64,000 nucleotides of DNA from assembly GCA_031290985.1 (NCBI GenBank), contig JARLJW010000034.1:1-64000 (forward strand). Direction: 5' to 3'. Of the stretch, positions 9,643 through 52,356 are shown one piece after another; positions within the stretch are counted from its first letter, which is position 1, and every line of letters begins with the position of its first letter. A model generated the notes under the pieces. That model worked only from the letters and a program-made list of their open reading frames with translations. It was not told the DNA's origin and did no database searches. This DNA is from Verrucomicrobiia bacterium (lineage in GTDB: Bacteria > Verrucomicrobiota > Verrucomicrobiia > Limisphaerales > UBA11358). The translations under genes and the position numbers were made by a program.

Positions 9643-9972
9643 ATGAAAAAGCTTCTCTGTATCGCGATTCCGGCGGCATTTATGCTCGCCTTGACCACCA
9701 ATGCGTTCGCCGCCGACGGCAAGGCGGTTTATGCCGACAACTGCGCCAAGTGCCACGGTGACGATGGCAAGGGCCAGACCAAGATGGGGCAGAAGCTCGG
9801 CGCACGTGATTATACCGATGCCAAGGTGCAGGATGACCTGAAGGATGCCGACGCCATCAAGTCCATCAAGGAAGGCATGAAGAAGGACGAGAAGACGCTC
9901 ATGAAGCCGTCCGAACTTTCGGATGAGGATATCAAGGCGTCACTCGCCTACCTGCGGACGTTCAAGAAGTAA
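9643..9972 (+). CDS. Secreted small cytochrome c (class I)
   Basis: A 109-residue periplasmic c-type cytochrome. It has a Sec signal peptide with likely cleavage after AFA (about residue 24), one heme motif CAKCH at 34-38, and a class I C-terminal helix (ASLAYLRTFKK). A Met in the TLMKP segment near residue 86 is the likely distal ligand. The lysine- and aspartate-rich middle (KDADAIKSIKEGMKKDEKT) is typical of small soluble c551/c553-like carriers. Start chosen at the only ATG fitting the signal peptide; a purine-rich GAAGGT precedes it. It shares its short C-terminal RTFK ending with the lipoprotein cytochrome at 1912-2280, so they may be paralogues. No redox enzyme is adjacent, so the partner is unknown. 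Confidence 0.92.
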   Translation: MKKLLCIAIPAAFMLALTTNAFAADGKAVYADNCAKCHGDDGKGQTKMGQKLGARDYTDAKVQDDLKDADAIKSIKEGMKKDEKTLMKPSELSDEDIKASLAYLRTFKK

Positions 9973-10175
9973 CGGCCGGTGGTTCAAGCAGGATTTTGGT
10001 GCCTCATCGCCGGGCTTGGTTTGTGGTTTGGTTCTTGGTTGGGCCGGCGGTGGGGCACCGTTCTTTTTTGGGTTCACCGTTTGCGGGGCGGTGGGGGGGC
10101 GGTACGGGCAGGCGCTTCGCCAGCACGAAATTTCTTTTGCCTTGGGCCTGACTTCGGCAAGCTGGCGTTAACGGC

Positions 10176-11519
10176 ATGAACATCGCCATCATCGGACTCG
10201 GCTACGTCGGGCTGCCCCTGTGCCTGCAATTCGCGCGCAGCGGCGTGCACGTGCTGGGTTTGGACATCGATTCCAAAAAGGTCCGCGCCCTCAATGCCGG
10301 GCGCAGTTACATCAAGCACATTGATGCCGGGGAGATCAAACGGCTCGTTCGCGCGGGGAAGTTTTGCGCGGCTTCGGATTTTTCCATGATTTCGGTCGGG
10401 TCACACACCCGGACAATTGCAAAGCCGCCTTACGTTGGCTGCTACGGGGAACGAGTTCAGGCCATCCTCATCTGTGTCCCCACGCCGCTGAAGAAAAATC
10501 GCGTGCCGGATTTGTCCTTTGTGCTGGAGACGGGACGGAGCATCGCGCCACACCTGCAACGCGGGCAGCTCGTCGTGCTGGAATCCACGACGTATCCGGG
10601 CACGACGGAGAATGAGTTGCGGGAAGTTTTGGAACGCGGTTCGGGATTGAAGGCGGGGGCAGATTTCCACCTGGCGTTCTCGCCGGAGCGGGAAGACCCG
10701 GGCAATCCCCGGAGCAAGGTGGCGGAGATCCCCAAGGTCATCGGCGGGTACACGCCGGCGTGTCTGGCGGCGGCGGTGAAGGTGTATTCGCAGGCCATCC
10801 GCATTTTGATTCCCGTGGCGAACTGCCGCACGGCGGAGGCGGCGAAGCTGCTGGAGAATGTTTTTCGCGGCGTGAACATCGCGCTGGTCAACGAACTCAA
10901 GGGCGTTTATGCGGCGATGGACATTGATATTTGGGACGTGATTGCGGCGGCGCGGACGAAGCCGTTCGGGTTCATGCCGTTTTATCCCGGCCCCGGCCTC
11001 GGGGGACATTGCATCCCGATTGATCCCTTTTACCTGGCGTGGAAGGCGAAGCAGGTGGGGCAGGAGACGCGCTTCGTGGAACTGGCCGGCGAGATCAACC
11101 GGTCGATGCCGGAGAAAGTCGTCGCGCGCGTGGGCCGGGCGCTGGCGGCGCAAAAGAAAAAATTGCGGGGGGCGCGGGTGCTGGTGCTGGGCCTGGCGTA
11201 CAAGGCGAACGTGGAAGACGACCGGGAATCGCCGAGCTACCGGCTGCTGGACCTGCTGGCGGCGCGCGGCGCGCAGGTGGCTTACCACGATCCGTACGTG
11301 CCGGTCATCAAGCCGACGCGGGAACATCCGCATTGGGCGGGGACGAAGTCGGTGAAGTGGAGCCGGGGAGTGATTGCTAAATTTGACGCCGTGCTGATTT
11401 CCACGGCGCACGCGGCGGTGGCTTACCAGGAACTGGCGGATTGGGCGCGGGTGATCGTGGATACGCGGAATGTGATGGCGGGATTCAAGACGGGGGCGGG
11501 GAAGGTTTGGAAGGCTTAA
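10176..11519 (+). CDS. UDP-N-acetylglucosamine/UDP-glucose 6-dehydrogenase family (WbpA-like), with an insertion
   Basis: A 447-residue nucleotide-sugar dehydrogenase that oxidises C6 of a UDP-sugar to the uronate with NAD. The Rossmann motif is GLGYVGLPL (7-15). The catalytic cysteine segment GPGLGGHCIPIDPFYL has the His-Cys-Ile-Pro form typical of WbpA-type UDP-GlcNAc/UDP-ManNAc dehydrogenases, and the C-terminal UDP-binding domain carries GLAYKANVEDDRESPS. Between ASDFS and AILICVPTPL there are about 25 residues where relatives have 5-6. This extra ~20-residue piece (about codons 71-91) is encoded by DNA with small inverted repeats and looks inserted in frame. The last 120 bp of the gene are duplicated 1,533 bp downstream. 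Role: polysaccharide or O-antigen precursor synthesis. Confidence 0.88.
   Translation: MNIAIIGLGYVGLPLCLQFARSGVHVLGLDIDSKKVRALNAGRSYIKHIDAGEIKRLVRAGKFCAASDFSMISVGSHTRTIAKPPYVGCYGERVQAILICVPTPLKKNRVPDLSFVLETGRSIAPHLQRGQLVVLESTTYPGTTENELREVLERGSGLKAGADFHLAFSPEREDPGNPRSKVAEIPKVIGGYTPACLAAAVKVYSQAIRILIPVANCRTAEAAKLLENVFRGVNIALVNELKGVYAAMDIDIWDVIAAARTKPFGFMPFYPGPGLGGHCIPIDPFYLAWKAKQVGQETRFVELAGEINRSMPEKVVARVGRALAAQKKKLRGARVLVLGLAYKANVEDDRESPSYRLLDLLAARGAQVAYHDPYVPVIKPTREHPHWAGTKSVKWSRGVIAKFDAVLISTAHAAVAYQELADWARVIVDTRNVMAGFKTGAGKVWKA
11396..11515 (+). repeat. 120-bp direct repeat, copy 1 (3' end of the dehydrogenase gene)
   Basis: Identical over 120 bases to 12929-13048. This copy encodes the last 40 residues of the functional dehydrogenase. 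Beyond it the sequences diverge: here the gene ends AAGGCTTAA, the other copy continues AAGGCGTGA. The FG-GAP gene lies between the copies. Confidence 0.97.
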
Positions 11520-38411: not shown

Positions 38412-39002
38412 TTAGTAGTGGACGCTGCAGCCGTACGGCTTGGTTTGGGTGATGGTGACGGGTTTGCCGGCGAGCAGTTCGTCCACAGCCGCACGGACAT
38501 AATTTTTGGCGGTGCGTGGATCACCGAACGGTTCCGGGCGATTATCCATCGCGCCGTTGTAAGCGAGGTTGCCGTCCGCGGCTATGACAAAGACATGGGG
38601 AGTGGTTCGCATGTCGTAGAGGTAGCCGATGGTTCCGGCGGTGTCATCGATCCAAGCGGTCGCGTTGATCTTCAGGTCGGTCCATTCCTGCTGTGCCTGG
38701 GCGGTGGTACGGTGGCTGGAATTTTTGACATTAACGGAATTCACAAGGAGCCAGACGACGCCCTTTCCGGCAAGGTCCTTCTGCAACTCCTGCGCTGCGC
38801 CGCTGTTGTACTGGTTGTGGCAGAAGGGGCAGTCCGAGTTATAGGACTCGATGACAACGATCTTCCCCTTGTAGTCGGAGAGTTTGACGGTTTTGCCGTT
38901 GATGTCCGTGCCGGTGAAATCGGGCGCGGGTTTGCCGATCTCCACGGCGAACAAGGACGTCGCCAGAGTCAGCGCGGCCAGTAATGCGAAGGTTTTTTTC
39001 AT
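38412..39002 (-). CDS. Exported thioredoxin-fold (AhpC/TSA-like) protein
   Basis: A 196-residue periplasmic protein with a Sec signal peptide (cleavage near residue 19, SLFA|V) and a peroxiredoxin/thioredoxin fold. The redox motif is CPFC at 58-61 in YNSDCPFCHNQYN. Later features are the cis-Pro loop TTPHVFVI and a conserved C-terminal GCSVHY with a further cysteine. It is the last gene of a minus-strand run and lies 64 bp downstream of the DsbD/ScsB-like gene, its likely electron donor. The role, peroxide removal or disulfide reduction in the envelope, is inferred. Confidence 0.85.
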   Translation of the reverse strand: MKKTFALLAALTLATSLFAVEIGKPAPDFTGTDINGKTVKLSDYKGKIVVIESYNSDCPFCHNQYNSGAAQELQKDLAGKGVVWLLVNSVNVKNSSHRTTAQAQQEWTDLKINATAWIDDTAGTIGYLYDMRTTPHVFVIAADGNLAYNGAMDNRPEPFGDPRTAKNYVRAAVDELLAGKPVTITQTKPYGCSVHY

Positions 39003-39066: not shown

Positions 39067-41217
39067 TCACTTGGTCACTTTATTCAAGGCTTCCATGACG
39101 ATTCCCGGGGTAAGAACTTCTGGCAGGACGATGGGGGGGGCGTTGGTATCTGCGGGATAGACCAGGACGAGCGGCACCCCGGCACGGTTGTAACGGTTGA
39201 GTTCGGCGGTGATGCTGTCCGGGAAATGCGTGTAATCACCATTGAAGGCAACGGCACCAATGGCTTTGAGTTTGTTGCTGACCGAATCGATATCAATGCT
39301 CGTTTGCTTGTTGACGCGGCAGGTGAGGCACCAATCAGCGGTAAAATCCACGATGACGGGTTTTCCGCTGACGCGGGCGGCGGTCACGGCTTCGGGCGAC
39401 CAAGCCGCCCACAGGCCGTTGCTCGTGGCGGTGTTTTCAATGCCGGCCTCGCCGCTGACTTCCGGTTTGCGCCAATGGAGCTGGTTTTCCAAGGCAAAGA
39501 CATATCCGCAAATAAAAATTCCCAAGGCGACCAGCGCTGCAATCCCTTTGTTTTTGCGGCCGCGCTGGGCAAATTCACCGAACACCCACATGGCGGTGGC
39601 CACGAATACGAGGAACACACCCAGCCAGACGACGTTTTTGCCATAGCTGCTGGAGGCGATGCTCAGTAACCACACCACGGTGGCAAGCATCGGGAAGCCC
39701 ATGGCTATCTTGAATTTCTCCATCCACACGCCCGGCTTGGGTAGAAATTTTAACCAGGCGGGATTCAAGCTTAACAGGAGATATGGCGCGGCGAGCCCGG
39801 TGCCGACCGCGAGAAACATCAAAACCAGGATGCTGGAGGGTTGCGTGAACGCGAAGCCAAGGGCGACGCCCAGGAACGGCGCGGTGCAGGGAGTGGCAAG
39901 AATGGTGGCGAGGATTCCATTAAAGAAAGCACCGGCCGCGCCGGGCCGCGAGGCCAGGTCACCGGCCTTGTCCAAGGTGCCACCGCCGAGGGTGACCTCA
40001 AACACGCCGAACAGGTTCAGCGCCACGAGCGTGACCAGCGTGGTCAGGCAGACCAGAAAAATGGGGCTGCCAAATTGCATCCCCCAGCCGGCCTTGTGTC
40101 CGGCCAGCTTCACCGAGATAACCAGGGCCGCCAGCGCAAGGAATGACAACAGGACGCCCGCCGTGTAAATCAAACCCAATTTACGAACATGTGCGGCATT
40201 ATTTTTGGCTTCGCTGACAAAACCAAGGATTTTCAAGGCGATGACCGGCAGCACGCAGGGCATGATGTTCAAAATCAATCCGCCGATGAACGCATAGAGC
40301 AGCATTTGCCAGAGCGAGACCGGCGGAGGGGGAGGCGTGGCGGCAATGGTTCCGCCCGGCACGACCGCGGACATGTCGGTGACGGGCATTTCTAATTCAT
40401 AGGCTTTGTCATCCAACACCAGCACGCCGGAGACTTCCTTGGGCCAGTCACCGGAAAATTTTTTCACCGGCTTGGTGAACTCAATTTCGTTCGCCGAATT
40501 GAGGACATTAGTGACGTCGGCTTCAATTTCAAAACTGTCGCTGGCGGCGGGGAAAAAATCCGCCGTTGTATGCGTGGGGGTGTCGCCGGGTGCGGGCCAG
40601 TCCAGTTCGAAGAGCAGGGGGCGGTCATCGCCCCCGGCCGGCTTCTGCCAAAGAGCCTGGGCGTTGAAGGTTTTTGCCGTTACTGGCACCTTCGCTTGCC
40701 AGGCTTCCAAAGTTATGGCGTCGCTGGACGCTTTTGTTTCCGGGCCAATGTCCAAGGATGCCTGCGCGTCCCCGGCCGCCGGGATGCACGAATCCTTGCA
40801 CTCCAGCCAGGAAACTTTCGCGGCCAGATTCAACGGGCCCGGGGACAGGCTGGAGTCAAGCTTCAGGGGTACGAGCAATACGACCTCCTCTTCGTAGGCA
40901 TAGGTCGTCACTTCCAAGGGAGGCAGTTTTTTAGGCAACGGCCACTGGATATCCCCGGCAGTGACGCCCGGGGGCAGTTGCCATTTTATCTCTGTTGCCT
41001 TGCCGGCGGCGCCCGGGTTTTTCCAGTAAGTGTGCCAGCCGGGCGCCATGGTCAGTCGCACGCCTGCCAGCACCGTGTCGCCCGCCTTGGCGGTGCCGGC
41101 GGATAACAACAGTTGCACCTGCGTGTTGGCCGCCTGCGCCACGGCCGTGGCCAGGCAGAAAACCAGCGCCGTTAATGTCAGTAATTTTCGCACAAGCAAA
41201 GTCAGATGTTCCCCCAC
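39067..41217 (-). CDS. DsbD/ScsB-like thiol:disulfide interchange protein
   Basis: A 716-residue inner-membrane protein that moves reducing power from cytoplasmic thioredoxin to the periplasm. Order: signal peptide (1-29, cleavage near AQA); an N-terminal DsbD alpha-type domain with the cysteine pair in LECKDSCIPA (about 135-143); an eight-helix DsbD beta core with the two buried cysteines in NIMPCVLPV and ILATPCTAPFLG; a C-terminal thioredoxin domain with CLTC in FTADWCLTCRVN. All three cysteine pairs are present, so it looks functional. It lies 36 bp after the giant Ig gene and before the thioredoxin-fold protein, and a TlpA thioredoxin is encoded 6.5 kb upstream on the same strand, so the region contains a complete periplasmic reducing chain. 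Confidence 0.92.
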   Translation of the reverse strand: MGEHLTLLVRKLLTLTALVFCLATAVAQAANTQVQLLLSAGTAKAGDTVLAGVRLTMAPGWHTYWKNPGAAGKATEIKWQLPPGVTAGDIQWPLPKKLPPLEVTTYAYEEEVVLLVPLKLDSSLSPGPLNLAAKVSWLECKDSCIPAAGDAQASLDIGPETKASSDAITLEAWQAKVPVTAKTFNAQALWQKPAGGDDRPLLFELDWPAPGDTPTHTTADFFPAASDSFEIEADVTNVLNSANEIEFTKPVKKFSGDWPKEVSGVLVLDDKAYELEMPVTDMSAVVPGGTIAATPPPPPVSLWQMLLYAFIGGLILNIMPCVLPVIALKILGFVSEAKNNAAHVRKLGLIYTAGVLLSFLALAALVISVKLAGHKAGWGMQFGSPIFLVCLTTLVTLVALNLFGVFEVTLGGGTLDKAGDLASRPGAAGAFFNGILATILATPCTAPFLGVALGFAFTQPSSILVLMFLAVGTGLAAPYLLLSLNPAWLKFLPKPGVWMEKFKIAMGFPMLATVVWLLSIASSSYGKNVVWLGVFLVFVATAMWVFGEFAQRGRKNKGIAALVALGIFICGYVFALENQLHWRKPEVSGEAGIENTATSNGLWAAWSPEAVTAARVSGKPVIVDFTADWCLTCRVNKQTSIDIDSVSNKLKAIGAVAFNGDYTHFPDSITAELNRYNRAGVPLVLVYPADTNAPPIVLPEVLTPGIVMEALNKVTK

Positions 41218-41253: not shown

Positions 41254-44200
41254 TCACCTGGCCGTCAGGATCCGGTAAAATTTCACCGGCGCATCCATGG
41301 GGTCGGTCACTTGCCAGGTGCCGGTGGCGTCAGCGGTGTTCGTCGCGATGCCTGTCCATTGGGCGAAATCAGAAGTGCTTTGTAAAACATAATCCGTTTT
41401 CGCCACGCCACTACAATGGAGCGTGATACTGCCGTTCCCGTTCAAACTGATTTGTGCGATTATCAGTGGCGGCGGGGTGGTGACCAGGCTTGCGGCCGGT
41501 GCCTTGATCAGGACGCTGGCGTTGGCGGAACGATCATCAGTTTCTCCTCCGCCATCACCGGACCGGCCTCGGATGCTCAAAGTGGCGTTGGAACTGGTGA
41601 TCCCACCGGCGATATTGGTCACGGACAATGAGTAGGCACCGGCGCGGGTCTGGGTCAGGCTGGTGAGGGTCAGGATATTTGATTGTGACCCGAATGTGTT
41701 GGCATCGTCTGCCAATGGCGCGCCGTTCTTGAACCATTGGAACGAGAACGGGGCGGTGCCGTTGACCGCCGCGCGGAATACCGTTGCCGAATTCAGCCTG
41801 GCCGTGCGGTTGGAGGCCTGGAGCGTGAATGTCGGTGGAACCAGCACCGTCAGCACGCCGTTGGAGCTGAGAACGGTGCCGGCGAGATTTGTTACCAGGA
41901 CGGAATAAGCGGCGGCGTCATTGGTTTTGACGTGCGCGATGACATAGCTTGCATTCGTCGCACCGGCGATGGCCGTGCCTGCCTTGCGCCATTGATAGTG
42001 CATGGGGGCGGTGCCGATTGCGGCGATGGTCATGGTCGCGGAGTTGCTGATGACGGCAAAAGAATCCCCGATCTGTTTCACAATGACCGGCGGTGACAGT
42101 ATTTTTAACAACGCATTGCTGCTGGTGGCCACGCCCGCCAGGTTGCTGGCGGTCAGGAAATAGGCCCCGCCATCGTTGGTTGTGACATTTGCGATCGTGA
42201 GGACATTCGAGAACGAACCGGAAATATTTCCGCCATCCGTCAACGCAACGCCATTTTTTGACCACTGGAAAACCACCGGCGCGGTGCCGGAAACCGAGGC
42301 CTTGAAAATGGTGGTGGTGGCCACCTTGGCCGCGCGGTTGGTCGCCTGCAAGGTGAAGCGCGGGCCGACCAGGACCGTGAGCTGCGCCTTGGAACTGGTG
42401 ATGCTGCCGGCAAGATTTGTCACCACGACCGAATAGGCCGCCGCATCATTCGTTTTGACGCCGCCAATGGCGAAGCTGGCATTGGTTGCGCCGGGTATGG
42501 GCGTGCCCGCCTTGCGCCACTGGAAGCGCAGCGCTGCGGAACCGGTTGCGCCCGCGGTGAAAGTCACGGCGTTGCTCAGAATAACCGTCTGGCTGGCGGG
42601 CTGGGTTACGATGGCTGGCGGCACCAGCACCGTAAGCGTGGCCCCGGCGCTGGTTGCGCTCCCAATCAGATTGGAAACCGTCACGGAATAACTCGCGGCA
42701 TCAGCGGTGGTGATCGGGGAAATCTTCAAAACGTTGGAGGCGGCGCCGGAAATGTTGCCACTGTTCACGAGCGGAATGCCATTCTTCAACCACTGGTAAA
42801 TTAGCGGGGCGGTCCCTTTCACATTGGCGGCAAACGACACGTTCGTCCCCAGAATCGCCGTGTGGTTTGTTGGCGACGCAATGATCTGTGGCGGTGCGAA
42901 GATCGCAAGCGAAGCGTTTGAGCTGAGGGTGCTGCCGAAAACATTGGTCACCCGCACGGAGTAATTTCCGTTCTGGTTCGTCGTAACGTTGATGAGGGTA
43001 AGCGTGGCGGCGGTCGCGCCGGAAATGTTGGTGCCGTTTTTGCGCCACTGGTAGGCGAGCGGACCGGTGCCCGTGGCGGTGACGCTGAAGGCCACCGCAT
43101 TGCTCCGGGCGGCAATCTGGCTGGCAGGCTGCACGGTGATCATCGGCGCGACATTTACGGCGATGCTCGCATTGCTGCTCGTGACACTGCCGAGGAAATT
43201 GCTGATGACGACAAAATAAACATCCACTTCATTCGTGGTCAGCGTCGCCATGGTCAGCACGTTGGAGAGTGCCCCGGAAAAATTTCCTCCGTCGGGCAGG
43301 GCGATGCCGCCTTTGAACCATTGGTAACTCAACGGGCCAGTGCCGCCGGCGACGACTGACAGGCTCACGGAATTACCCAGCGCACTGACCTGGTTCACGG
43401 GTTGCGAGATGATGCCCGGGGGCGCCAGCACAGTGAGCGCGGCATCCGTGCTGGTGACGTTGCCGGCGGAATTGCCGACGACCACGGAATAATTTCCCGC
43501 ACTGGCCGCCGTGACACTGGTGAGCGTCAAGGTGGCGGTGTTTGCCCCGGCAATGTTGGTGCCGTTCTTACGCCATTGATAAGTGAAGGGAGCGGTACCG
43601 TCGACCATGACGCTGAACGTGGCGTTGCTGGTGGTTATCACCGTCGTCGGCATGGGCGGCGTGATGATGGATGGCGGCACAATTACGGTCAGGGTGGCGG
43701 CGAGACTGTTCGTGTTGCCGGCGCTGTTCGAGATGGTGACGGAGTAGCTGGCCGCATCGTTGGTCGTGACCCCGGTGAGGGTCAAAATATTTGAACTGGA
43801 GCCGGAGAGATTGCCACCGTCAACCAGGGCGGAGCCGTTCTTGTACCATTGAAGACTCAACGGGGCGGTGCCGGAGACACTCACGGTAAACACCGCGTTT
43901 GCGCCCGACGATGCAGTGGAATTCTGCGGCTGAGAATTGATGGTCGGTGGAATTAGAACAGTCAGGTTCGCGGCGGAACTGACCGCCCCGCCGACGGCGT
44001 TGGAGACGGCAACGGAATAATTTCCCGCGTCGCTTGCAGTTACGTTGGCGAGGGAGAGGGTGGCGGTATCTGCACCGGAAATGTTGCCGCCATTCGCGAG
44101 GGGGCTTCCATTTTTGCGCCAGGCAAAGGTCAGGGGCGCAGTACCGCTGGCAGTGACGGTGAAGGAAATGTTGCTGGCCGCAACTGCTGTCACGCTGGCC

Positions 44201-46122
44201 GGCGAGGTGACGATGCTGGCTGGCACAAGCACGGTGAGCAAGGCGTTGGAACTGACGACGCTGCCAAGCGAGTTTGAGACGATGACGGAATAGGCAGCCG
44301 CGTCGTTGGTTGTGACACTTGTTAGGGTCAAGATGTTTGAGCCGGAGCCGGAAAGATTGCCGCCGTCTGCCAAGGCGGAGCCGTTCTTGGACCATTGAAG
44401 GTTGAGTGGGGCGGTGCCGGAAATATTCACGCTAAACGTTACCGTTGCACCCGACGAGACGGTGGAATTGATTGGCTGTGTATTGATGGTCGGGGGAATG
44501 AGAACGGTCAGGCTCGCGGCGGAACTGACAGCCCCGCCGACGGCGTTGGAGACTGTAACAGAATAATTTCCCGCATCGTTCATAGTAACATTGGCGAGGG
44601 CAAGAGTGGTTGTATTTGCGCCGGAAATATTGCCGCCATTCGCGAGGGGGCTTCCATTTTTGCGCCAGGTGAAAGTCAGTGGCGCACTGCCATCGGCAGT
44701 AACGGTAAATGTGATGTTGCTACCTGCAGGTGTTATCACGCCGGCCGGCGAGGTAACGATGCCCGCTGGCACCAGTACGGCGAGCGTGGCGTTGGAACTG
44801 ACGACGCTGCCGAGCGAGTTCGAGACGATGACGGAATAGGCTGCTGCGTCGGTCGTCGTGACGTTGGAAAGGTTCAGCGTAGCGGTCGTGGTTCCGGAAA
44901 TATTGCCGCCGTCCGTCAGTGGGCCTCCGTTTTTTTGCCAGAAGAAATAGAGCGGAGAGGAGCCCGCCGCGGTCACGGTGAAGGAAACGCCGGTGCCGGC
45001 CGCCACCGAGCGGTTTATCGGCTGCGCAGAAATCGTGGGTGAGGTGACGACGGCCAGCGTGGCATTGGAACTCGTCACGGTGCCGGCGAGGTTGCTGACG
45101 ATGACCGAGTAGTTTCCTGCGTCCGCAGTGGCGATGCTGCTGATGGCCAGCGCGCTGGTATTGACGCCGGAATATTTTGCGCCGTTTGCGAGGGCGGCCC
45201 CGTTCTTGAGCCAGAAATAACCCAGTGTTCCCGTGCCGGTGGCGGTGACGGTGAAGCTGGCGGTGCCGGTGGCGGCGGCGGTCTGACCTTGTGGCTGGGC
45301 GATGATGGCGGGCGGCAGGATGACGGCCAGGCTGGCATTGGAACTGGTTGCGCTGCCAACGGTGTTTGCGACCGTGACAGAATAATTTCCGGCATCACCG
45401 GCCGAGACATTGGCGACGGTCAGCGTGGCCGATCCGGAGCCGGACAGGTTGCCGCCATCCGTCAGTGCGGAATTGTTTTTTGACCAGGCATAGCTTAACG
45501 GCGCGGTTCCGCTGGCGGCGACGGTGAACACCGCGTTTCTGCCTACGATTACATTTGTGCCGGAGGGTTGGGTAGTGATGCCGGGAACTGTGGGGGTTAC
45601 GGTGCCGGTGATATTGATGGTGATGGCCTGGGAGAGCGACGCATTCCCCGGGCTGACAATGGTGACCGTGGTCGGATAGCTTCCGGGCGTGGCGGGCGTG
45701 CCGTAGATGCTCCCGCCAATGGTCTTGGAACCGTTTACTGAGGAGGCCTTGAACGTCAGGCCGGGAGGCATCGTGATGGTGGTGGTTTGATTGTTATAGA
45801 GCAGGGGCGAACTTGTGCTGCCGGAACTGACAAACACGTAATCACTGGAGGAGGCGTTGTTTCCGCCGCCGATGGACACCACGACATTGTTCGAGAAATA
45901 AGTCCCAACGGAACCATTGAACGTGGACGGCGAGGTGAATACGGACGTGGCGCCGGAGACCGAGTCAAATGCGCCCAGCGCCGCCGTGCCGCCGATGGCC
46001 CAGCGAAAGATGATCGCGAAGGCCGAGACCGCCGAGGGTTGCGTGCAGACTGTCCGCACCATGGGCAGCACTTGCAACAGCGCGGCGAGGAGGAGTGAGT
46101 GGTTTTTTAGCCGGTACGACAT
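41254..46122 (-). CDS. Giant 15-Ig-domain surface protein with N-terminal flavinylation-type anchor
   Basis: 1,622 residues. An N-terminal anchor (1-65) has two hydrophobic segments (LLLAALLQVLPMV and FAIIFRWAIGGTAALGAF), then D53-S-V-S-G-A-T59, matching the D-x-x-S-G-A-T signature at which ApbE links FMN to Thr. A ~120-residue domain follows. Fifteen Ig-like modules of about 87-91 residues each have a GNYSV(T/V)VSN-type end. A Ser/Thr/Pro linker and a final domain (LHCSGVAKTDYVLQSTS... FYRILTAR) close it. Adjacent modules are very alike: a 546-bp tandem duplication covers two Ig modules (compare 43985 and 44531). The same N-terminal anchor occurs in the next gene upstream. It probably projects from the cell envelope. 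Its position 20 bp from the smaller Ig gene and in the same run as apbE supports shared function. FMN attachment is inferred from motif and context, not shown. Confidence 0.85.
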   Translation of the reverse strand: MSYRLKNHSLLLAALLQVLPMVRTVCTQPSAVSAFAIIFRWAIGGTAALGAFDSVSGATSVFTSPSTFNGSVGTYFSNNVVVSIGGGNNASSSDYVFVSSGSTSSPLLYNNQTTTITMPPGLTFKASSVNGSKTIGGSIYGTPATPGSYPTTVTIVSPGNASLSQAITINITGTVTPTVPGITTQPSGTNVIVGRNAVFTVAASGTAPLSYAWSKNNSALTDGGNLSGSGSATLTVANVSAGDAGNYSVTVANTVGSATSSNASLAVILPPAIIAQPQGQTAAATGTASFTVTATGTGTLGYFWLKNGAALANGAKYSGVNTSALAISSIATADAGNYSVIVSNLAGTVTSSNATLAVVTSPTISAQPINRSVAAGTGVSFTVTAAGSSPLYFFWQKNGGPLTDGGNISGTTTATLNLSNVTTTDAAAYSVIVSNSLGSVVSSNATLAVLVPAGIVTSPAGVITPAGSNITFTVTADGSAPLTFTWRKNGSPLANGGNISGANTTTLALANVTMNDAGNYSVTVSNAVGGAVSSAASLTVLIPPTINTQPINSTVSSGATVTFSVNISGTAPLNLQWSKNGSALADGGNLSGSGSNILTLTSVTTNDAAAYSVIVSNSLGSVVSSNALLTVLVPASIVTSPASVTAVAASNISFTVTASGTAPLTFAWRKNGSPLANGGNISGADTATLSLANVTASDAGNYSVAVSNAVGGAVSSAANLTVLIPPTINSQPQNSTASSGANAVFTVSVSGTAPLSLQWYKNGSALVDGGNLSGSSSNILTLTGVTTNDAASYSVTISNSAGNTNSLAATLTVIVPPSIITPPMPTTVITTSNATFSVMVDGTAPFTYQWRKNGTNIAGANTATLTLTSVTAASAGNYSVVVGNSAGNVTSTDAALTVLAPPGIISQPVNQVSALGNSVSLSVVAGGTGPLSYQWFKGGIALPDGGNFSGALSNVLTMATLTTNEVDVYFVVISNFLGSVTSSNASIAVNVAPMITVQPASQIAARSNAVAFSVTATGTGPLAYQWRKNGTNISGATAATLTLINVTTNQNGNYSVRVTNVFGSTLSSNASLAIFAPPQIIASPTNHTAILGTNVSFAANVKGTAPLIYQWLKNGIPLVNSGNISGAASNVLKISPITTADAASYSVTVSNLIGSATSAGATLTVLVPPAIVTQPASQTVILSNAVTFTAGATGSAALRFQWRKAGTPIPGATNASFAIGGVKTNDAAAYSVVVTNLAGSITSSKAQLTVLVGPRFTLQATNRAAKVATTTIFKASVSGTAPVVFQWSKNGVALTDGGNISGSFSNVLTIANVTTNDGGAYFLTASNLAGVATSSNALLKILSPPVIVKQIGDSFAVISNSATMTIAAIGTAPMHYQWRKAGTAIAGATNASYVIAHVKTNDAAAYSVLVTNLAGTVLSSNGVLTVLVPPTFTLQASNRTARLNSATVFRAAVNGTAPFSFQWFKNGAPLADDANTFGSQSNILTLTSLTQTRAGAYSLSVTNIAGGITSSNATLSIRGRSGDGGGETDDRSANASVLIKAPAASLVTTPPPLIIAQISLNGNGSITLHCSGVAKTDYVLQSTSDFAQWTGIATNTADATGTWQVTDPMDAPVKFYRILTAR

Positions 46123-46141
46123 GGCTTTATTGAGTTAATGA

Positions 46142-47428
46142 TCAGGGCATCACCATCAGGCGGTAGAACAGGTTTGGCAGATTGAACGTATTGCTGAGGG
46201 TGATGGGATTATTGTTGGCGGGTGGCGGGAGGTTGGTCCACACCCCCCAGTTGCCGCCGATGAGATTGCCGTTGGTGAGCACGGTATTGGTCAGTCCAAT
46301 CACGGGCGTGAAGGTGAAATTAAACCTGCCCCCGGCAGTGCCACCACTGGAAACCGGCGGGACCAGTGGATTGGTGACGATCAGCGTGGCCGGGGAACTG
46401 GTGATGGCACCGGCAGAATTCGTGATGACGACAGAATAACTTCCCGTCTGGCTGGCGCGGAGGTTCGCCAGATTATAAGTGGAACCCGTGGCCCCCGAAA
46501 TCGCGGTGGTGATGTTATATTTCCACTGGTAGTTTAACGTGGGCACACCGCCGGCCAGGACGGTGAAGCTGGCGCCGCCGCCGGCAACATTCGTGAAATT
46601 GGCGGGCTGATTGGTGATGACAGGAGGCTGCCAGACGGTCAGGAGGGCGTTCGCGCTATTGGTTGCGCCCGCGGAGTTGGTGATGGTGCAGCGGTAATAG
46701 CCGCTGTTAGTCAACTGGATGTTGGTGAGCGTGAGTGATGAGTTCGTTGCTCCGGACACGGCGGTGTTGGTGTTGAAATACCATTGATAATTCAATGGGG
46801 CCGTGCCGCCGGCCGTGACGCTAAAAGAATTGTTGGTGGTCCCGACAAGATTCGTTGCTCCTGCGACGGGTTGGCTGGTAATGACTGGGGCAGAGCTTGC
46901 GGCCGCGACAACCGCTATTCGGAAAAAGCTTTCCACCGGGGTGACGCCTGACTGGTAAAACAAATAAACGTGAAATGTATTCGTCACAACTTGTGTCGGG
47001 GTGCCGGAAATTTGACAATAAACGTTTGAAAAGCTTGAGCTTCCCGAGTTCACATCAATGAATTTGAAGCTTATCCCGGCAGGCATGCCGTTAGTTGTGG
47101 ACTGGCCATTCATAAGAATGTTAGTCGAGGATGAATTCGTGATGGTGCAAAGCGCCCCTCCATCTCCTGATGTCTTTGTAAACAAAATCGCGTTTGTGGT
47201 ATAGGGCGTGTTGATTGTGATGGTAACGTTTGTGCCGCCGGCGAAGCCATTAGTCGCGCCAGATGCTGCATCATACGCCCCCACAACGGCTGCGGTTCCC
47301 ATGCCCCATTTGAGGATGAAGGCAAAGCTGGAGGTGGCTGCCGGGTTGACAAAGAAGTTGCGGACGATCGGCAACACCTGCAGCAGCGCGGCCAGCAGGA
47401 TGGCGTGACGTTGGACGGTGTTTTTCAT
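46142..47428 (-). CDS. Two-Ig-domain surface protein with the same N-terminal flavinylation-type anchor
   Basis: 428 residues from the ATG at 47428; an upstream ATG at 47629 would run through the DUF4266 gene. Residues 1-59 match the giant protein's N-terminus: HAILLAALLQVLPIVRNFF, then FAFILKWGMGTAAVVGAY, then D53-A-A-S-G-A-T59, again the ApbE-type FMN-Thr motif at identical positions. Residues ~60-180 form a poorly conserved domain, then two Ig-like modules (ends YYRCTITNSAGA and GSYSVVITNSAGA) and a short C-terminal domain ending in FNLPNLFYRLMVMP. Directly downstream of DUF4266 (46 bp) and upstream of the giant Ig gene (20 bp). Confidence 0.82.
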   Translation of the reverse strand: MKNTVQRHAILLAALLQVLPIVRNFFVNPAATSSFAFILKWGMGTAAVVGAYDAASGATNGFAGGTNVTITINTPYTTNAILFTKTSGDGGALCTITNSSSTNILMNGQSTTNGMPAGISFKFIDVNSGSSSFSNVYCQISGTPTQVVTNTFHVYLFYQSGVTPVESFFRIAVVAAASSAPVITSQPVAGATNLVGTTNNSFSVTAGGTAPLNYQWYFNTNTAVSGATNSSLTLTNIQLTNSGYYRCTITNSAGATNSANALLTVWQPPVITNQPANFTNVAGGGASFTVLAGGVPTLNYQWKYNITTAISGATGSTYNLANLRASQTGSYSVVITNSAGAITSSPATLIVTNPLVPPVSSGGTAGGRFNFTFTPVIGLTNTVLTNGNLIGGNWGVWTNLPPPANNNPITLSNTFNLPNLFYRLMVMP

Positions 47429-47474
47429 ATGTGACTTGAGTGAGTGGATTGGTTTGAATTTATCCGGATGATGT

Positions 47475-47693
47475 TCAATTGCAGCCGCAACCGCCGCCGC
47501 CGACTCCGCTGCCGCCACTGGCCTCTTCGCGCGAGAACCAGATATGTTCCTTTTGCGCGATGCCCAGCGGGTCGCGGTCGGGTCGCATCGTGTAATCGGC
47601 GAGATGCTCGCGCTGCCACGGTTTGACATTGGCGCAGCCGGTGGCCCCTAAAAGCACAACCGATGCCAGCAGGAAAAAGACCTTGGTTTTCAT
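47475..47693 (-). CDS. DUF4266 lipoprotein with C-terminal GGCGCN
   Basis: A 72-residue lipoprotein: the signal peptide ends in the lipobox LGATGC (lipidated C20). A short conserved part, VKPWQREHLADYTM and DPLGIAQKEHIWFSREE, follows. The C-terminus is SGGSGVGGGGCGCN with cysteines at 69 and 71. This layout is that of DUF4266, which I recall occurring beside DUF3570, ApbE and thioredoxin genes, exactly as here. The flexible Gly-rich end with C-G-C could bind metal, a cofactor or be modified. Role not established. Confidence 0.9.
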   Translation of the reverse strand: MKTKVFFLLASVVLLGATGCANVKPWQREHLADYTMRPDRDPLGIAQKEHIWFSREEASGGSGVGGGGCGCN

Positions 47694-47700
47694 GGAAGGA

Positions 47701-48192
47701 TCATTTCAAAATGGATTCAATTTCACTGAGGTACTCTTTACGGGTGGTTTCGCCGTGGAATCCGTTGTGCAGGAAGCGCACCTTGCCGGTGCCATCCAAA
47801 ATGAATGACGTGGGCATGGTTTCCGGCGAGACAGTGGCGACCAGTTTTTGGCCGGCATCACGGACGACGGCGAAAGTCACGGCATGCTTCTTCAAGAATT
47901 TGTCCATGTTTGAGGCTTTTTCATCGACGTTTACGGCAATGACGACGAGGCGGTCCCCATACTTCTTTTGCAACTCGTCCATCACGGGAAAAGATTCGGC
48001 GCAGGGCAGGCACCACGAGGCCCAGAAATCCACGATGACGACTTTTCCCCTGGTGTCCGGCAATTTTCCTTCGAGCGAATAGCTTGCGAGCTCGGGCAGG
48101 GTGTCGCCGACCTTCAAGGCGGCGCCGGCCGTGAGCCAGGCGCCGGCGAGCAGGGCGGCCAGAACGGCTTTTTTAAGCAGGGATGTATTCAT
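47701..48192 (-). CDS. TlpA-like periplasmic thioredoxin
   Basis: About 163 residues from the ATG at 48192: signal peptide 1-24 (AAWLTAGA-type cleavage), then a thioredoxin/TlpA domain with the active site CLPC in VIVDFWASWCLPCAESFP, and the cis-Pro loop in MPTSFILDGTGKV. It probably keeps a periplasmic target thiol reduced, or makes a disulfide. The start lies 20 bp inside the apbE 3' end, showing tight coupling, and the gene is 7 bp before the DUF4266 gene. Confidence 0.9.
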   Translation of the reverse strand: MNTSLLKKAVLAALLAGAWLTAGAALKVGDTLPELASYSLEGKLPDTRGKVVIVDFWASWCLPCAESFPVMDELQKKYGDRLVVIAVNVDEKASNMDKFLKKHAVTFAVVRDAGQKLVATVSPETMPTSFILDGTGKVRFLHNGFHGETTRKEYLSEIESILK

Positions 48193-49165
48193 GGAATTTT
48201 CGGGAATAGATTTTGGTGTGGTTGGTGGTGATGGCGCCGGCCGCGCCGGGGTGAAGCTCGATGAGTTCCATGCCTTCCTTGGCGCCCAGGATACAGATGC
48301 TGGTGGAAAGCAGGCCGGCAATTGTGCAACTGGGGGCGATGACGGAGGCGGCGCGGCAATCGTTCAACGCCGGATAGCCGGTGCGCGGATCCAGGATGTG
48401 CCCGTAGCGGACGCCGTTGATCTCAAAGTGACGGAGGTAGTCGCCGGAGGTCGCCACGGCGTGGTCATTGACCGCCACGCCCGCCCAGCACTTGCCGGGC
48501 TGCTGGGCATCATCCAGGCCGATCCACCAGAATTTTTTATCCTTGGCGTGGCCGCGCACGCGCACATCCTGGCCAAAATCCACAAGCACGTTCTGGATGC
48601 CGCGCTCGATGGCCATGCCCATGACATAATCCACGGCATATTCCTTGCCGATGCCGCCGAGGTCGAGGGCCATGCCCCGTTGGGGCAGAAAGATTCCGCC
48701 TGGACGCCGTTGGAGCTTGTTCCAGCCGACCAGATCGCGCGCCGCACGGATGGCCTCCTCGGCGGGCAGTGCTGGCGGCCGCTGTTTCCAATTCCAGAGC
48801 TTGATGAGCGGCAGGGCGGTCGGATCGAATGAGCCGCGCGTGAAGAAAAACAGTTCGTGGCACAACGCGAACAGACGGTCGGTTTCCGGATCGGTTTCGA
48901 CCCAATATTCGCCGGCGGCGGCGTTGATCTTGCCGATGAGGCTGTCGGGTATGAACCGCGAGTAGCGCGCCTCGAACCGGGCAACCCAGGCGACGACATC
49001 GCGTTGAAAATCCCGGGCGACATCGGGGGCGACCCCGTGGAAATTGACGCGGCACGGCGTGCTCATGGCGCGGAACTCCAGCTTGGACAGCCCGTGCTCA
49101 ACCGTTGCCTGCGCAGATTGCGTGACGCGGGCGACGGCTTCGGCGGCGGATTTGGGGCTGTTCAT
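48173..49165 (-). CDS. apbE: ApbE-family FAD:protein FMN transferase
   Basis: About 330 residues. ApbE uses FAD and Mg2+ to attach FMN through a phosphoester to Thr/Ser in a target motif. Visible family segments are AMSTPCRVNFHG near 34-45, the FAD-binding GMALDLGGIGKEYAVD (about 162-177), VDFGQDVRV, and ATSGDYLRHFEINGVRYGHILDPRTGYPA (given in parts). In the C-terminal metal site the usual A-D-A-L-(S/T)-T appears as AGLLSTS, so the common Asp ligand is Gly. No signal peptide or lipobox is visible, unlike most periplasmic ApbE. Either it acts in the cytoplasm or the start is misjudged. The stop of DUF3570 overlaps the ATG at 49165 (TAATG); an ATG at 49171 is also possible. Confidence 0.9.
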   Translation of the reverse strand: MNSPKSAAEAVARVTQSAQATVEHGLSKLEFRAMSTPCRVNFHGVAPDVARDFQRDVVAWVARFEARYSRFIPDSLIGKINAAAGEYWVETDPETDRLFALCHELFFFTRGSFDPTALPLIKLWNWKQRPPALPAEEAIRAARDLVGWNKLQRRPGGIFLPQRGMALDLGGIGKEYAVDYVMGMAIERGIQNVLVDFGQDVRVRGHAKDKKFWWIGLDDAQQPGKCWAGVAVNDHAVATSGDYLRHFEINGVRYGHILDPRTGYPALNDCRAASVIAPSCTIAGLLSTSICILGAKEGMELIELHPGAAGAITTNHTKIYSRKFHEYIPA

Positions 49166-50343
49166 TACCATAGAATGGAGAAGCCAATCGTAAACACGTT
49201 GGCTTGGGGATACATGTCGGCGGACGTATGGTCCAAGCCGCGCATTTCATAACGGTGGTAACCGGCGACGAGGTGCACGTGGTCGTTGATGATGGCCGTG
49301 GCCTGCAAGCCAAAATCAAGCGAGTAAAATTCCGAGAGCCGGTAGTCGGATGAGTGCAAGCCGGCCGGGTCGGTGGAGAAGGTTCCGGGCGCTCCATAAA
49401 AGGCCGTGGCGTAGAAACTGGCGGCGCTTTGTTCGTAAAAGCGGAACATGGGCTCGACGATGAAATGTTTGCCCAGGTGCTGGTGCCAAGTCAGCCCGAG
49501 CGTGTGGCTGAAAACATCATATGAATCGTGGTGGAAACGGTAGGACGCCTCGAGGCTCGCATCGACGGACGTAAAATAATGCGTCGCCGAGGTGAATAAA
49601 ACTTCTTTGCTGCGGTACCCCGGGCGATGTTCCGGCACGCCAATATTGAAGCCCGTAGGAAAAATTCCGGGATGATATTCGGCGAGCCGGTAGGGATCGT
49701 TCAAATACCCGTCGTCATAGCCAAAGGTGAACGCGACATTCAAAATATCCGCCGGGGACAATATTTGGGACAAGCCAATGATGACGTCGGTCGAATCTTT
49801 GCCGCTCCAATTGACCCGGTCAGAGTGACGCACCGAGTCAAAGTTATGATCCGCGCCGAATTGGAGGATGGTGTTTTTGTCATTGAAAGCAATCGCGTCA
49901 CTCAGCGAGATGCCGCGGGATTCATAATCAGTTTCACGGCTGTCGGCAAAGCCGGCGCTGAGCGTATGCCGGCCAAGCTGCCAGTCCAGGTCCAGGTTTC
50001 CGGCCTGGCGGGTGTCCTCCACCCGGGTGGTGATGATTTTCCCCGACAGGTCATGGGTTCCATAGGGCGTCGCCCCGGAAATGCTGTCGTAAACGAATTC
50101 CCCCTTGGCCGTCAGGGAGTCCAGGAGTTTCTGCTCGAAGTACACCGAGTGCGTCTCGATGGTCATCCGGTTGTTGTCCTCTTTGTAATACTCGTAGCGA
50201 TAGTCGACGTGGTTTTCGCCGCGCAAGATCTGTGGCACGCTGCAGGCCATGCCGAGAGGCAGGAACCGCCGCCACTGGCCGGCGGCGCGCGCGATTTTGT
50301 CCGCCTGGCTGGCGAACCCGGAGAAGGTGGGTTTTTTGATCAT
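49165..50343 (-). CDS. DUF3570 outer-membrane-type protein with DSISGAT motif
   Basis: A 392-residue protein with many alternating hydrophobic/polar beta strands, aromatic-rich, ending FTIGFSILW with a terminal aromatic as in outer-membrane barrels. It fits DUF3570 (HVDYRYEYYKEDNNRM and GISLSDAIAFNDKNT are typical segments). Near the N-terminus D86-S-I-S-G-A-T92 followed by PYG matches the FMN-Thr signature, and the gene precedes apbE with a one-base overlap. The first ~40 residues lack a clear Sec signal (only a weak hydrophobic patch, FLPLGMACSV), so export is puzzling or the true start differs. First gene of the DUF3570-apbE-tlpA-DUF4266 set. Confidence 0.85.
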   Translation of the reverse strand: MIKKPTFSGFASQADKIARAAGQWRRFLPLGMACSVPQILRGENHVDYRYEYYKEDNNRMTIETHSVYFEQKLLDSLTAKGEFVYDSISGATPYGTHDLSGKIITTRVEDTRQAGNLDLDWQLGRHTLSAGFADSRETDYESRGISLSDAIAFNDKNTILQFGADHNFDSVRHSDRVNWSGKDSTDVIIGLSQILSPADILNVAFTFGYDDGYLNDPYRLAEYHPGIFPTGFNIGVPEHRPGYRSKEVLFTSATHYFTSVDASLEASYRFHHDSYDVFSHTLGLTWHQHLGKHFIVEPMFRFYEQSAASFYATAFYGAPGTFSTDPAGLHSSDYRLSEFYSLDFGLQATAIINDHVHLVAGYHRYEMRGLDHTSADMYPQANVFTIGFSILW

Positions 50344-50474: not shown

Positions 50475-51515
50475 TTACGTTTGAAAGGAGGGCGTTTGTT
50501 CGACCAGCGGGATGCGGAGCAGGGTGGCGTGATAATCACTCCCGTAGCGCCGTTGCAGCCGGACTTGCGGTTCGAGCCGGAGCAATGCCGCCACGACCCG
50601 CAGGCCGAGACCCAAGGTGGACTCAGGATGCGCGGTATGGGTGATGCGGTTCGAGACCAGCAGCACGACGCTGTGCGGATGGCGCTTCAAACGCACGGTC
50701 AGGTCCCCGCTGCCGTGCTTAAGCGCGTTGGTCAGCAGCGTGTGGGCGATCTGACGGAGATGTCGTGGATCGGCGGAAACCCAGCAGCCGGCATCTGATT
50801 TCAGGGTGAATTTGCGGTCCTGTCCGGCGGCGAGCAGTTGGAAATCAGCGACCACCTCGGTGATGGCCGATGAAAAATCAAACACCGAGCGCCGCGGCAG
50901 GATGCGGCCCTGCTCGGCGCGCGCGATGAGCAGCGACTGGTCCACGACGTGCGTAAGGCGGTGCAGTTCGTTTTCCAGTTCCTCCGCCAGCTCCGGCGCG
51001 ATCCGTTCGCCGGCCTGTTCCACCTTGAGGCGCATGATGGACAACGGCGTGCGCAGTTCGTGGGCCACCTTCGCGGCGTAGTTGTTCATTTCGGCGAAAG
51101 ATGAATCAAGGCGTGACAACAGGTCGTTCAACTGCCGCAGCAGGTCGCGGAATTCCAGATCCACCTCCGGGAGCGAGATAGGCTGGCCGAGGTTGCCGGG
51201 GTTCTTGGACTGGAGCTGCCGGTTTACGTTGGCAATCGGCCGCAGCGACTGGCGCGCCAGCCAGTAGCCGCCCGCAATCGCCACCAGCACCACCGGCGAC
51301 ACCCACAGCAACGCCGAACGAACCAGGCTGGCGGCGACCTCGTGGACTTCCGCCGTCGTGAGGCTGGTATTGGCCGGGCCGGGATGCCGCCGGCCGTCAT
51401 ACTTTTGCAACAGCGCCGTCTCCACGGTGAAATACAACAGGAAAATATAGGCGGCACTGACGGCGATGAAACCGATGCCATACCACAACGTCAGGCGCAA
51501 CCGCATCGACCTCAT
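50475..51515 (-). CDS. Sensor histidine kinase with degenerate G1 box
   Basis: About 346 residues. The TM helix at 7-29 and second at 68-88 enclose a short periplasmic loop. A HAMP-like linker, then a DHp domain with phospho-acceptor H152 in VAHELRTPLSI and the HATPase N-box LRQIAHTLLTNALKHG follow. In the ATP lid the usual D-x-G-x-G is missing (VVLLVSNRITHT...), though a GLGL G2-like element remains in STLGLGLRVV. The start at 51515 overlaps the regulator's stop (ATGA), so it is coupled to the response regulator. It lies 131 bp upstream of the DUF3570 set and is the likely controller of those genes. Kinase activity may be weak or altered. Confidence 0.88.
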   Translation of the reverse strand: MRSMRLRLTLWYGIGFIAVSAAYIFLLYFTVETALLQKYDGRRHPGPANTSLTTAEVHEVAASLVRSALLWVSPVVLVAIAGGYWLARQSLRPIANVNRQLQSKNPGNLGQPISLPEVDLEFRDLLRQLNDLLSRLDSSFAEMNNYAAKVAHELRTPLSIMRLKVEQAGERIAPELAEELENELHRLTHVVDQSLLIARAEQGRILPRRSVFDFSSAITEVVADFQLLAAGQDRKFTLKSDAGCWVSADPRHLRQIAHTLLTNALKHGSGDLTVRLKRHPHSVVLLVSNRITHTAHPESTLGLGLRVVAALLRLEPQVRLQRRYGSDYHATLLRIPLVEQTPSFQT

Positions 51516-52189
51516 GGCGGCCCCTCCCGCAATGCGAAGCCCACCCCGCGCACCGTGTGGATCAACGGCGGCAGTTCCGGCCGGTCGATTTTTTTTCGCA
51601 ACAGGTTGACATAGACGTTCACGACGTTCGTTTCGGAATCGAAGTGCTGGTCCCAAACATGTTCCACGATGGCCGTCTTGCTCACGGGCTTCGGTGAGTT
51701 GGCGATGAGGAATTCGAGCAACGCGAATTCCCGCGGCGTCAGGGGAATTTGCGCGCCCGCCCGCCGCGCCTCATGCGAAACCAGGTCGAGTTCCAGGTCG
51801 CCGACGCGCATGACCGTGGCGGATTGCGGACGTTGCCGCCGCAGGACAGCGCGCAGACGGGCCAGCAATTCAGAGATGGAAAAGGGTTTGGTCAGATAAT
51901 CATCCGCCCCGGCATCCAGACCGCGAACCTTGTCCTCCACATCATCGCGCGCCGTCAAAAATATCACCGGGGTGGTGATTTGCCGGCGGCGCAGATGGCG
52001 CACCACGGTGAAGCCGTCCTTATGGGGCATGGTGACATCCAGCAGCAGGGCGTCGTAGGCATTTTCCTGGGCCAGCCAGAGGGCCTCGTCGCCATCCACG
52101 GCGACGTCCACCGCGTAGCCTTCCGCCACCAGACCCAGGCGGACATGTTCGGCCACCTTCGGCTCGTCTTCGGCTAGCAGGATGCGCAT
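51512..52189 (-). CDS. OmpR-family response regulator
   Basis: A 225-residue regulator: receiver domain with phosphorylation site D51 (LLLDVTMPHKDG), acidic pair E7-D8 and K101 (LTKPFSISELLARL). The OmpR/PhoB winged helix runs from about 130 to the end, with TPREFALLEFLIANSPKPVS and VVNVYVNLLRKKIDRP in the recognition region. The start at 52189 gives the family N-terminus MRILLAEDEP. First gene of the two-component pair and of the 14-kb minus-strand run. Confidence 0.95.
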   Translation of the reverse strand: MRILLAEDEPKVAEHVRLGLVAEGYAVDVAVDGDEALWLAQENAYDALLLDVTMPHKDGFTVVRHLRRRQITTPVIFLTARDDVEDKVRGLDAGADDYLTKPFSISELLARLRAVLRRQRPQSATVMRVGDLELDLVSHEARRAGAQIPLTPREFALLEFLIANSPKPVSKTAIVEHVWDQHFDSETNVVNVYVNLLRKKIDRPELPPLIHTVRGVGFALREGPP

Positions 52190-52356
52190 GATAGTTTTAC
52201 AAGAGTTTTCGCCATCTGATGATCCGTCTGTGGAATTCAACACGGAATTTAACCGGTGTCAATTTCCCGTTTTCTAAAAAAGGTGCAGTAGGCAGGACGC
52301 TGGCGTGACCGGGAGCGATGACGAGGCGGATAATGTTCTGCTCAGGATATGCTTAT

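Follow-up and report, generated by a model that had tools for sequence, protein, structure and literature searches.

Ig-repeat proteins with a conserved hydroxyl in their N-terminal anchor are linked to verrucomicrobial DUF3570 operons and are candidate ApbE substrates

Gene clusters that encode the flavin mononucleotide (FMN) transferase ApbE together with DUF3570, thioredoxin-like (Trx-like) and DUF4266 proteins, and often DsbD, have already been described, and the same work showed for Chlorobium luteolum that the ApbE of this organism attaches flavin to its DUF3570 protein at two motifs (Meheust et al. 2021, PMC8238504). We analysed a related cluster in a stretch of 64,000 nucleotides from a Verrucomicrobiia bacterium of the Limisphaerales (hereafter the window; positions 1 to 64,000 of contig JARLJW010000034.1, assembly GCA_031290985.1). 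The window shares all five components with the published DsbD-type clusters, including a DUF3570 protein with an ApbE motif, and differs from them in that two proteins with immunoglobulin (Ig) repeats and a common N-terminal anchor are inserted between DUF4266 and DsbD; moreover, its DUF3570 protein has one motif, whereas two conserved motifs are common but not required in the published clusters (PMC8238504). What concerns DUF3570 is already known, and the Ig-protein anchor is new: a term search of the main text of PMC8238504, the only paper returned by a full-text literature search for DUF3570, gave no mention of immunoglobulin or Verrucomicrobia, and the literature searches brought up no paper that treats Ig proteins or Verrucomicrobia in the context of DUF3570 or ApbE.

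The anchor belongs to a family that is tied to DUF3570 operons. Its second hydrophobic helix ends in an [SA]-G-A-[ST]-like motif, in which the Ser/Thr hydroxyl is invariant. The Ig proteins are best read as dedicated components of the system and probably also as a new ApbE substrate, with FMN on the Ser or Thr of the anchor. The cluster is transcribed in the order DUF3570, ApbE, Trx-like, DUF4266, two-Ig, 15-Ig, DsbD and Trx/AhpC, and its features are the following:

49165 to 50343, minus strand: DUF3570 protein, 392 amino acids, predicted 16-strand outer-membrane beta-barrel (Pfam PF12094, E 2e-59; AlphaFold; Foldseek)
50068 to 50088, minus strand: motif DSISGAT, D86 to T92 of DUF3570; acceptor Thr92, codon 50068-50070
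48173 to 49171, minus strand: ApbE FMN transferase (Pfam PF02424, E 4e-69; active-site alignment)
47701 to 48234, minus strand: secreted Trx-like protein of the ResA/TlpA type (Pfam Redoxin, E 4e-17; NCBIfam ResA-like)
47478 to 47693, minus strand: DUF4266 small lipoprotein, C-terminus GGGGCGCN (CXC) (PF14086, E 8e-20)
46142 to 47428, minus strand: two-Ig protein, 428 amino acids, ATG at 47428; N-terminal anchor, then Ig domains
47252 to 47272, minus strand: motif DAASGAT, D53 to T59 of the two-Ig protein; acceptor Thr59, codon 47252-47254
41254 to 46122, minus strand: 15-Ig protein, 1622 amino acids, N-terminal anchor as in the two-Ig protein (15 I-set stretches; anchor alignment)
45946 to 45966, minus strand: motif DSVSGAT, D53 to T59 of the 15-Ig protein; acceptor Thr59, codon 45946-45948
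39067 to 41217, minus strand: DsbD-type transmembrane thiol reductase with C-terminal Trx domain (NCBIfam PRK00293 DsbD, E 1e-39)
38412 to 39002, minus strand: second, secreted Trx/AhpC-TSA protein at the 3' end of the cluster (Pfam AhpC-TSA, E 7e-18)

A preliminary description of this DNA, made from its letters, had proposed an ApbE flavinylation system, and the combination of ApbE, DUF3570, Trx-like, DUF4266 and DsbD genes bears this out; DUF4266, DsbD and the second Trx/AhpC protein are members of the cluster that it had not named. The last of these has a counterpart in three loci of the same genus (L055, L056 and L057), where a Trx gene likewise stands 3' of DsbD. The three D-x-x-S-G-A-T motifs near ApbE on which the proposal was built all lie where they had been placed, on the minus strand, and are confined to these proteins, as had been claimed: the strict form D-x-x-[ST]-G-A-[ST] occurs in no other long open reading frame (ORF) of the window. 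Shuffling 56 non-overlapping ORFs yielded 0.11 strict motifs on average and never three in 2000 trials, and the probability that both Ig proteins carry a motif by chance is ~2e-4.

The N-terminal ~60 residues of the two-Ig and 15-Ig proteins are homologous, with 50% identity; neither Pfam nor NCBIfam has a family that they match. In both proteins the motif directly follows a hydrophobic segment, just as first described. The AlphaFold model of the two-Ig protein places helices at residues 4-27 and 34-57 (low confidence), the motif at 53-59 and the Ig domains thereafter, and a Foldseek search with this model returned Ig domains only. Across 37 anchor proteins, a domain scan found Ig, PKD and similar domains only, and no known flavinylated domain (FMN_bind, DUF2271, DUF3570, Flavodoxin_4 or FMN_red). 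The genome has a third anchor copy, with the motif DAVSQAS, on contig C77, where it is part of a second cluster of the order DUF3570-Trx-DUF4266-DsbD-Ig that has no local apbE (locus L007, C77:158000-177000). Many anchor proteins, of all lengths, also have a common C-terminal tail of the form FYR[VL]xxxP (for example at window positions 41254-41290 and 46142-46170), possibly a sorting or folding signal.

With a profile built from the three anchors of this genome we searched 196 genomes of the order; a single-sequence search over the phylum had reached only two other genomes, and a profile was needed. Anchor matches were found in 53 of the 196 genomes and DUF3570 likewise in 53, with both present in 51. 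The two genomes with DUF3570 only are a fragment and a genome that is 76% complete, and the two anchor-only matches are both weak (one, in G295, fails the refined model; the other, in G347, has E 0.006). The co-occurrence corresponds to a Fisher P of ~3e-45, a value that overstates the association since related species are not independent. Within the genus, however, five genomes have both the anchor and DUF3570 and four have neither, a pattern that does not depend on deep ancestry. Co-occurrence with apbE had been suggested as the check; ApbE is present in 190 of the 196 genomes and is uninformative in this respect, so that it is DUF3570 that serves as the informative partner.

ApbE or DUF3570 lies within 9 kb of the anchor in 68 of 83 cases, and among the remaining 15 there are several close to a contig end, with under 3 kb of sequence upstream; in most loci the anchor gene is downstream of DUF3570-ApbE-Trx(-DsbD) on the same strand, and the gene order is repeated in dozens of loci. 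The named loci place the anchor family in Limisphaerales/subdivision 3 and relatives of Opitutaceae, where most intact DUF3570 loci hold one to three anchors. In a sample of the phylum, DUF3570 was present in 15 of 15 anchor genomes; one DUF3570 genome of the same class had no anchor, and neither did 14 DUF3570 genomes of other classes, which identifies the anchor as a class-specific addition to the system. This linkage shows that the Ig proteins are components of the ApbE/DUF3570 system. One could still suppose that they are ordinary adhesins that happen to lie beside a flavinylation operon, the three motifs being coincidental. Ig proteins as such are indeed not tied to the system, since the genome encodes at least one that lacks both the anchor and an ApbE context. 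The Ig protein on contig C94 has an ordinary signal peptide and no anchor, so that the anchor is not general to the Ig proteins of this genome. Set against the number of motifs expected by chance, the co-occurrence and the recurrent gene order, we nevertheless regard this explanation as highly improbable.

We counted the motif residues in 84 non-redundant operon-linked anchors and traced their changes along a tree built from the partner DUF3570 proteins. At the acceptor position, 44 anchors have Ser and 40 have Thr; it has changed at least 13 times, always between Ser and Thr, and no other anchor column with as many changes stays within such a pair. Taking a 30% chance per change of remaining Ser or Thr, the probability of this is 0.3^13, or ~2e-7. 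The Ala of the motif is kept in 79 of 84 and the first Ser in 77, the rest having Ala, and the G-A-T core is invariant in all anchors read from other orders of the class. The expectation that D-x-x-S-G-A-T as a whole would be invariant among homologues did not hold: about half of the anchors have His for the Asp and roughly one in four has another residue for the Gly, while the acceptor is never lost. Under the refuting condition set in the preliminary description, a motif that varies among homologues, this counts against the proposal if the condition is read strictly. In published mutagenesis, replacing the Asp by Ala had little effect, Gly-to-Ala and Ala-to-Val changes left ~50% flavinylation, and Thr-to-Ala abolished it (PMC12052999); as far as the comparison goes, this tolerance fits most of the variation in the anchor motif, apart from Gln, Arg and Lys at the Gly position. 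We considered whether motif decay follows the loss of ApbE and rejected the idea, as anchors with SRAS, SKAS or SSAS still adjoin ApbE.

These patterns must also be read against a purely structural role, in which the anchor would be an obligatory partner of DUF3570 or DsbD, a hairpin for docking or for insertion into the membrane, while the small residues at its helix end would mimic an ApbE site without carrying flavin. The anchor does have a function beyond flavin, since its first segment (L-Q-x-x-P-[L]-x-[RK]) is conserved like the motif, with Pro in 83 and Gln in 71 of 84; in addition, the motif Asp is not kept, and one clade (loci L007, L058, L059, L060 and L069) retains the anchor with Q, R, K or S in place of the Gly. 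A structural site for small residues should, however, drift to Ala, Gly or Cys, which the acceptor never does in these sequences, whereas the Gly position next to it has changed 14 times on the tree, to Ala, Ser, Arg, Lys and Gln. We therefore rate a structural role alone as unlikely, while taking it more seriously than any other alternative. Strictly, the data show a conserved hydroxyl and not a flavin, and the hydroxyl might instead be the site of O-acylation, glycosylation or phosphorylation and so take part in tethering to the membrane. With ApbE encoded in the same operon, an anchor motif that matches the motif of the neighbouring DUF3570, and no further modifying enzyme recognised in the cluster, whose genes are all otherwise assigned, such a modification seems improbable.

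The AlphaFold model of the DUF3570 protein is a beta-barrel of the outer-membrane type (predicted local distance difference test score, pLDDT, 89), for which Foldseek returned FadL, porins, BcsC and PelB, and its motif sits in strand 3 of the predicted barrel; judging by how residues alternate along the strand, Thr92 and Asp86 would lie on one face, pointing towards the lumen. The motif position is kept as D..[SA]G[AS][ST]P in the DUF3570 proteins of related operons, and in operons with an anchor its Asp and Gly are nearly always kept, so that the anchor motif is the relaxed version of the two. In classes without the anchor, DUF3570 has a stretch of 125-160 residues after the first motif, and on it a second motif, of the type [KR]-A-G-A-T-P, in six clear cases among ten proteins. 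In the anchor class this stretch is ~40 residues in most of the proteins read, the window protein has its one motif, and a second motif was present in 3 and absent in 135 of 141 sequences (a redundant set). Two of these three come from loci without a recognised anchor (L190 and L193), and in the remaining one the contig ends within the locus; in L190 (DUF3570 at 9719-11260) the loop carries DAVSGASP, and no anchor gene was found downstream. This suggests that the second flavin may sit either on DUF3570 or on an Ig protein. The difference between the classes amounts to a single phylogenetic event, and a swap of the site is therefore hypothetical. Among the other DUF3570 loci, one match has an in-frame stop (L115, 9812-10942), possibly a frameshift or a pseudogene in the metagenome-assembled genome, and two (L135 and L143) have no nearby apbE, a sensor kinase gene ahead (with a response regulator gene in L143) and, after DUF3570, genes that by eye resemble recC/recB/recD. 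A search of plasmids gave three Vibrio relatives only.

The operon ApbE keeps the catalytic Ser (ATSG) and His (GHI) in the active-site alignment, and its Pfam match is strong, with the metal-site Asp replaced by Gly within C-T-I-A-G-L-L-S-T. The form C-x-x-A-G-x-L-[ST]-T is found in 51 of 55 aligned ApbEs where the usual enzyme reads A-D-x-L-x-T, and the replaced Asp aligns with D284 in Ftp of T. pallidum. In ApbE of Vibrio cholerae it corresponds to D285, which belongs to a proposed catalytic triad (PMC12052999). The idea that the replacement marks a verrucomicrobial pseudo-enzyme is weakened by the ApbE of a Vibrio DUF3570 operon that has the same change and no Ig anchor; because this operon shares it, the change looks like a trait of DUF3570-linked ApbE and not like decay. 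The change to Gly (AGxLST) was noted in DUF3570-linked ApbEs of the window, L042-L113, L114-L193 and L198; those of Verrucomicrobiota further have a near-invariant Cys four residues before the changed position (C-T-x-A-G), and the metal site of DUF3570-linked ApbE is possibly altered or redox-sensitive. The genome encodes a second, canonical ApbE on contig C88.

Several of these observations, and some others, weigh against flavinylation of the anchor. No flavin-binding fold is recognised in it by Pfam, NCBIfam or the AlphaFold model, and with two helices and a charged N-terminus it has an ambiguous topology as judged by charge. The Asp position of the motif is Asp in 35 and His in 42 of the 84 anchors, with His, Gln, Asn or Ala in more than half; the Gly is kept in 65, with Ala in 14 and Ser, Gln, Lys or Arg in 5, among them the SQAS of this very genome, despite its ApbE, and Arg, Lys or Gln at this position has no precedent in the literature searched. 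Lacking the metal-site Asp, the operon ApbE is, by its sequence, not certain to be an active transferase.

On balance, covalent FMN on the Ig proteins is likely. The window holds a complete extracytosolic electron-transfer operon of ApbE, DUF3570, DUF4266, Trx and DsbD, to which the Verrucomicrobia class of this genome has added Ig-repeat anchor proteins. The enzyme that moves FMN from FAD onto the anchor Ser or Thr, as onto DUF3570, would be either the operon ApbE or the canonical one on contig C88, and cytosolic electrons could pass through DsbD and the thiols of Trx and DUF4266 to the FMN on the anchor and on the outer-membrane DUF3570 barrel, while the Ig array might tether or present the redox site. 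More speculatively, the anchor flavin could stand in for the second, flexible-loop flavin on the DUF3570 of other lineages. The full proposal, in which Ig-repeat proteins are covalent flavoproteins whose anchor site replaces the DUF3570 loop flavin and whose Ig array is tied to a DsbD-fed outer-membrane relay, is in our judgement evenly poised between right and wrong.

One further element lies directly upstream of the cluster:

50475 to 52243, minus strand: two-component pair, a CusS/CopS-like kinase and a CopR-like regulator

The likeness of this pair to CopRS/CusRS hints at metal or redox control, and it is a possible regulator of the cluster. Two-component control as a conserved feature of DUF3570 operons was considered and discarded, as a pair is upstream of only 20-24 of 115 DUF3570 genes (~20%).

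Should the anchor indeed be flavinylated, it would be an ApbE substrate of a new structural class, with a membrane-anchor hairpin ahead of Ig repeats, and would enlarge a widespread and poorly understood periplasmic electron-transfer system. A large family of verrucomicrobial Ig proteins, so far uncharacterised, would gain its first role, and nature would have provided an experiment on what the DUF3570 system does, with the second flavin site on DUF3570 in some lineages and on a separate protein in others.

The anchor had at first been likened to RnfD/NqrB, and the comparison stands in so far as the site adjoins a hydrophobic segment; beyond that it is an analogy only, as the anchor has two helices and no similarity was found. 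In NqrB and RnfD the flavin is carried by a membrane subunit with a multi-helix membrane core. The anchor, in contrast, has no multi-helix membrane domain and no Pfam or NCBIfam match. With the established ApbE substrates, namely FMN_bind (NqrC/RnfG), DUF2271, DUF3570, Flavodoxin_4 and FMN_red extensions (PMC8238504, PMC11334425), it has in common the [ST]GA[ST] motif, a Ser or Thr at the acceptor position and a nearby apbE. It differs from them in that its site ends a hydrophobic helix ahead of Ig domains and in that no fold known to bind flavin was recognised. Multi-flavinylated proteins (PMC8238504, PMC11334425) resemble the Ig proteins in being long extracytosolic proteins with ApbE sites; what they repeat, however, is the FMN_bind domain, whereas here the repeats are Ig domains and each protein has a single site.

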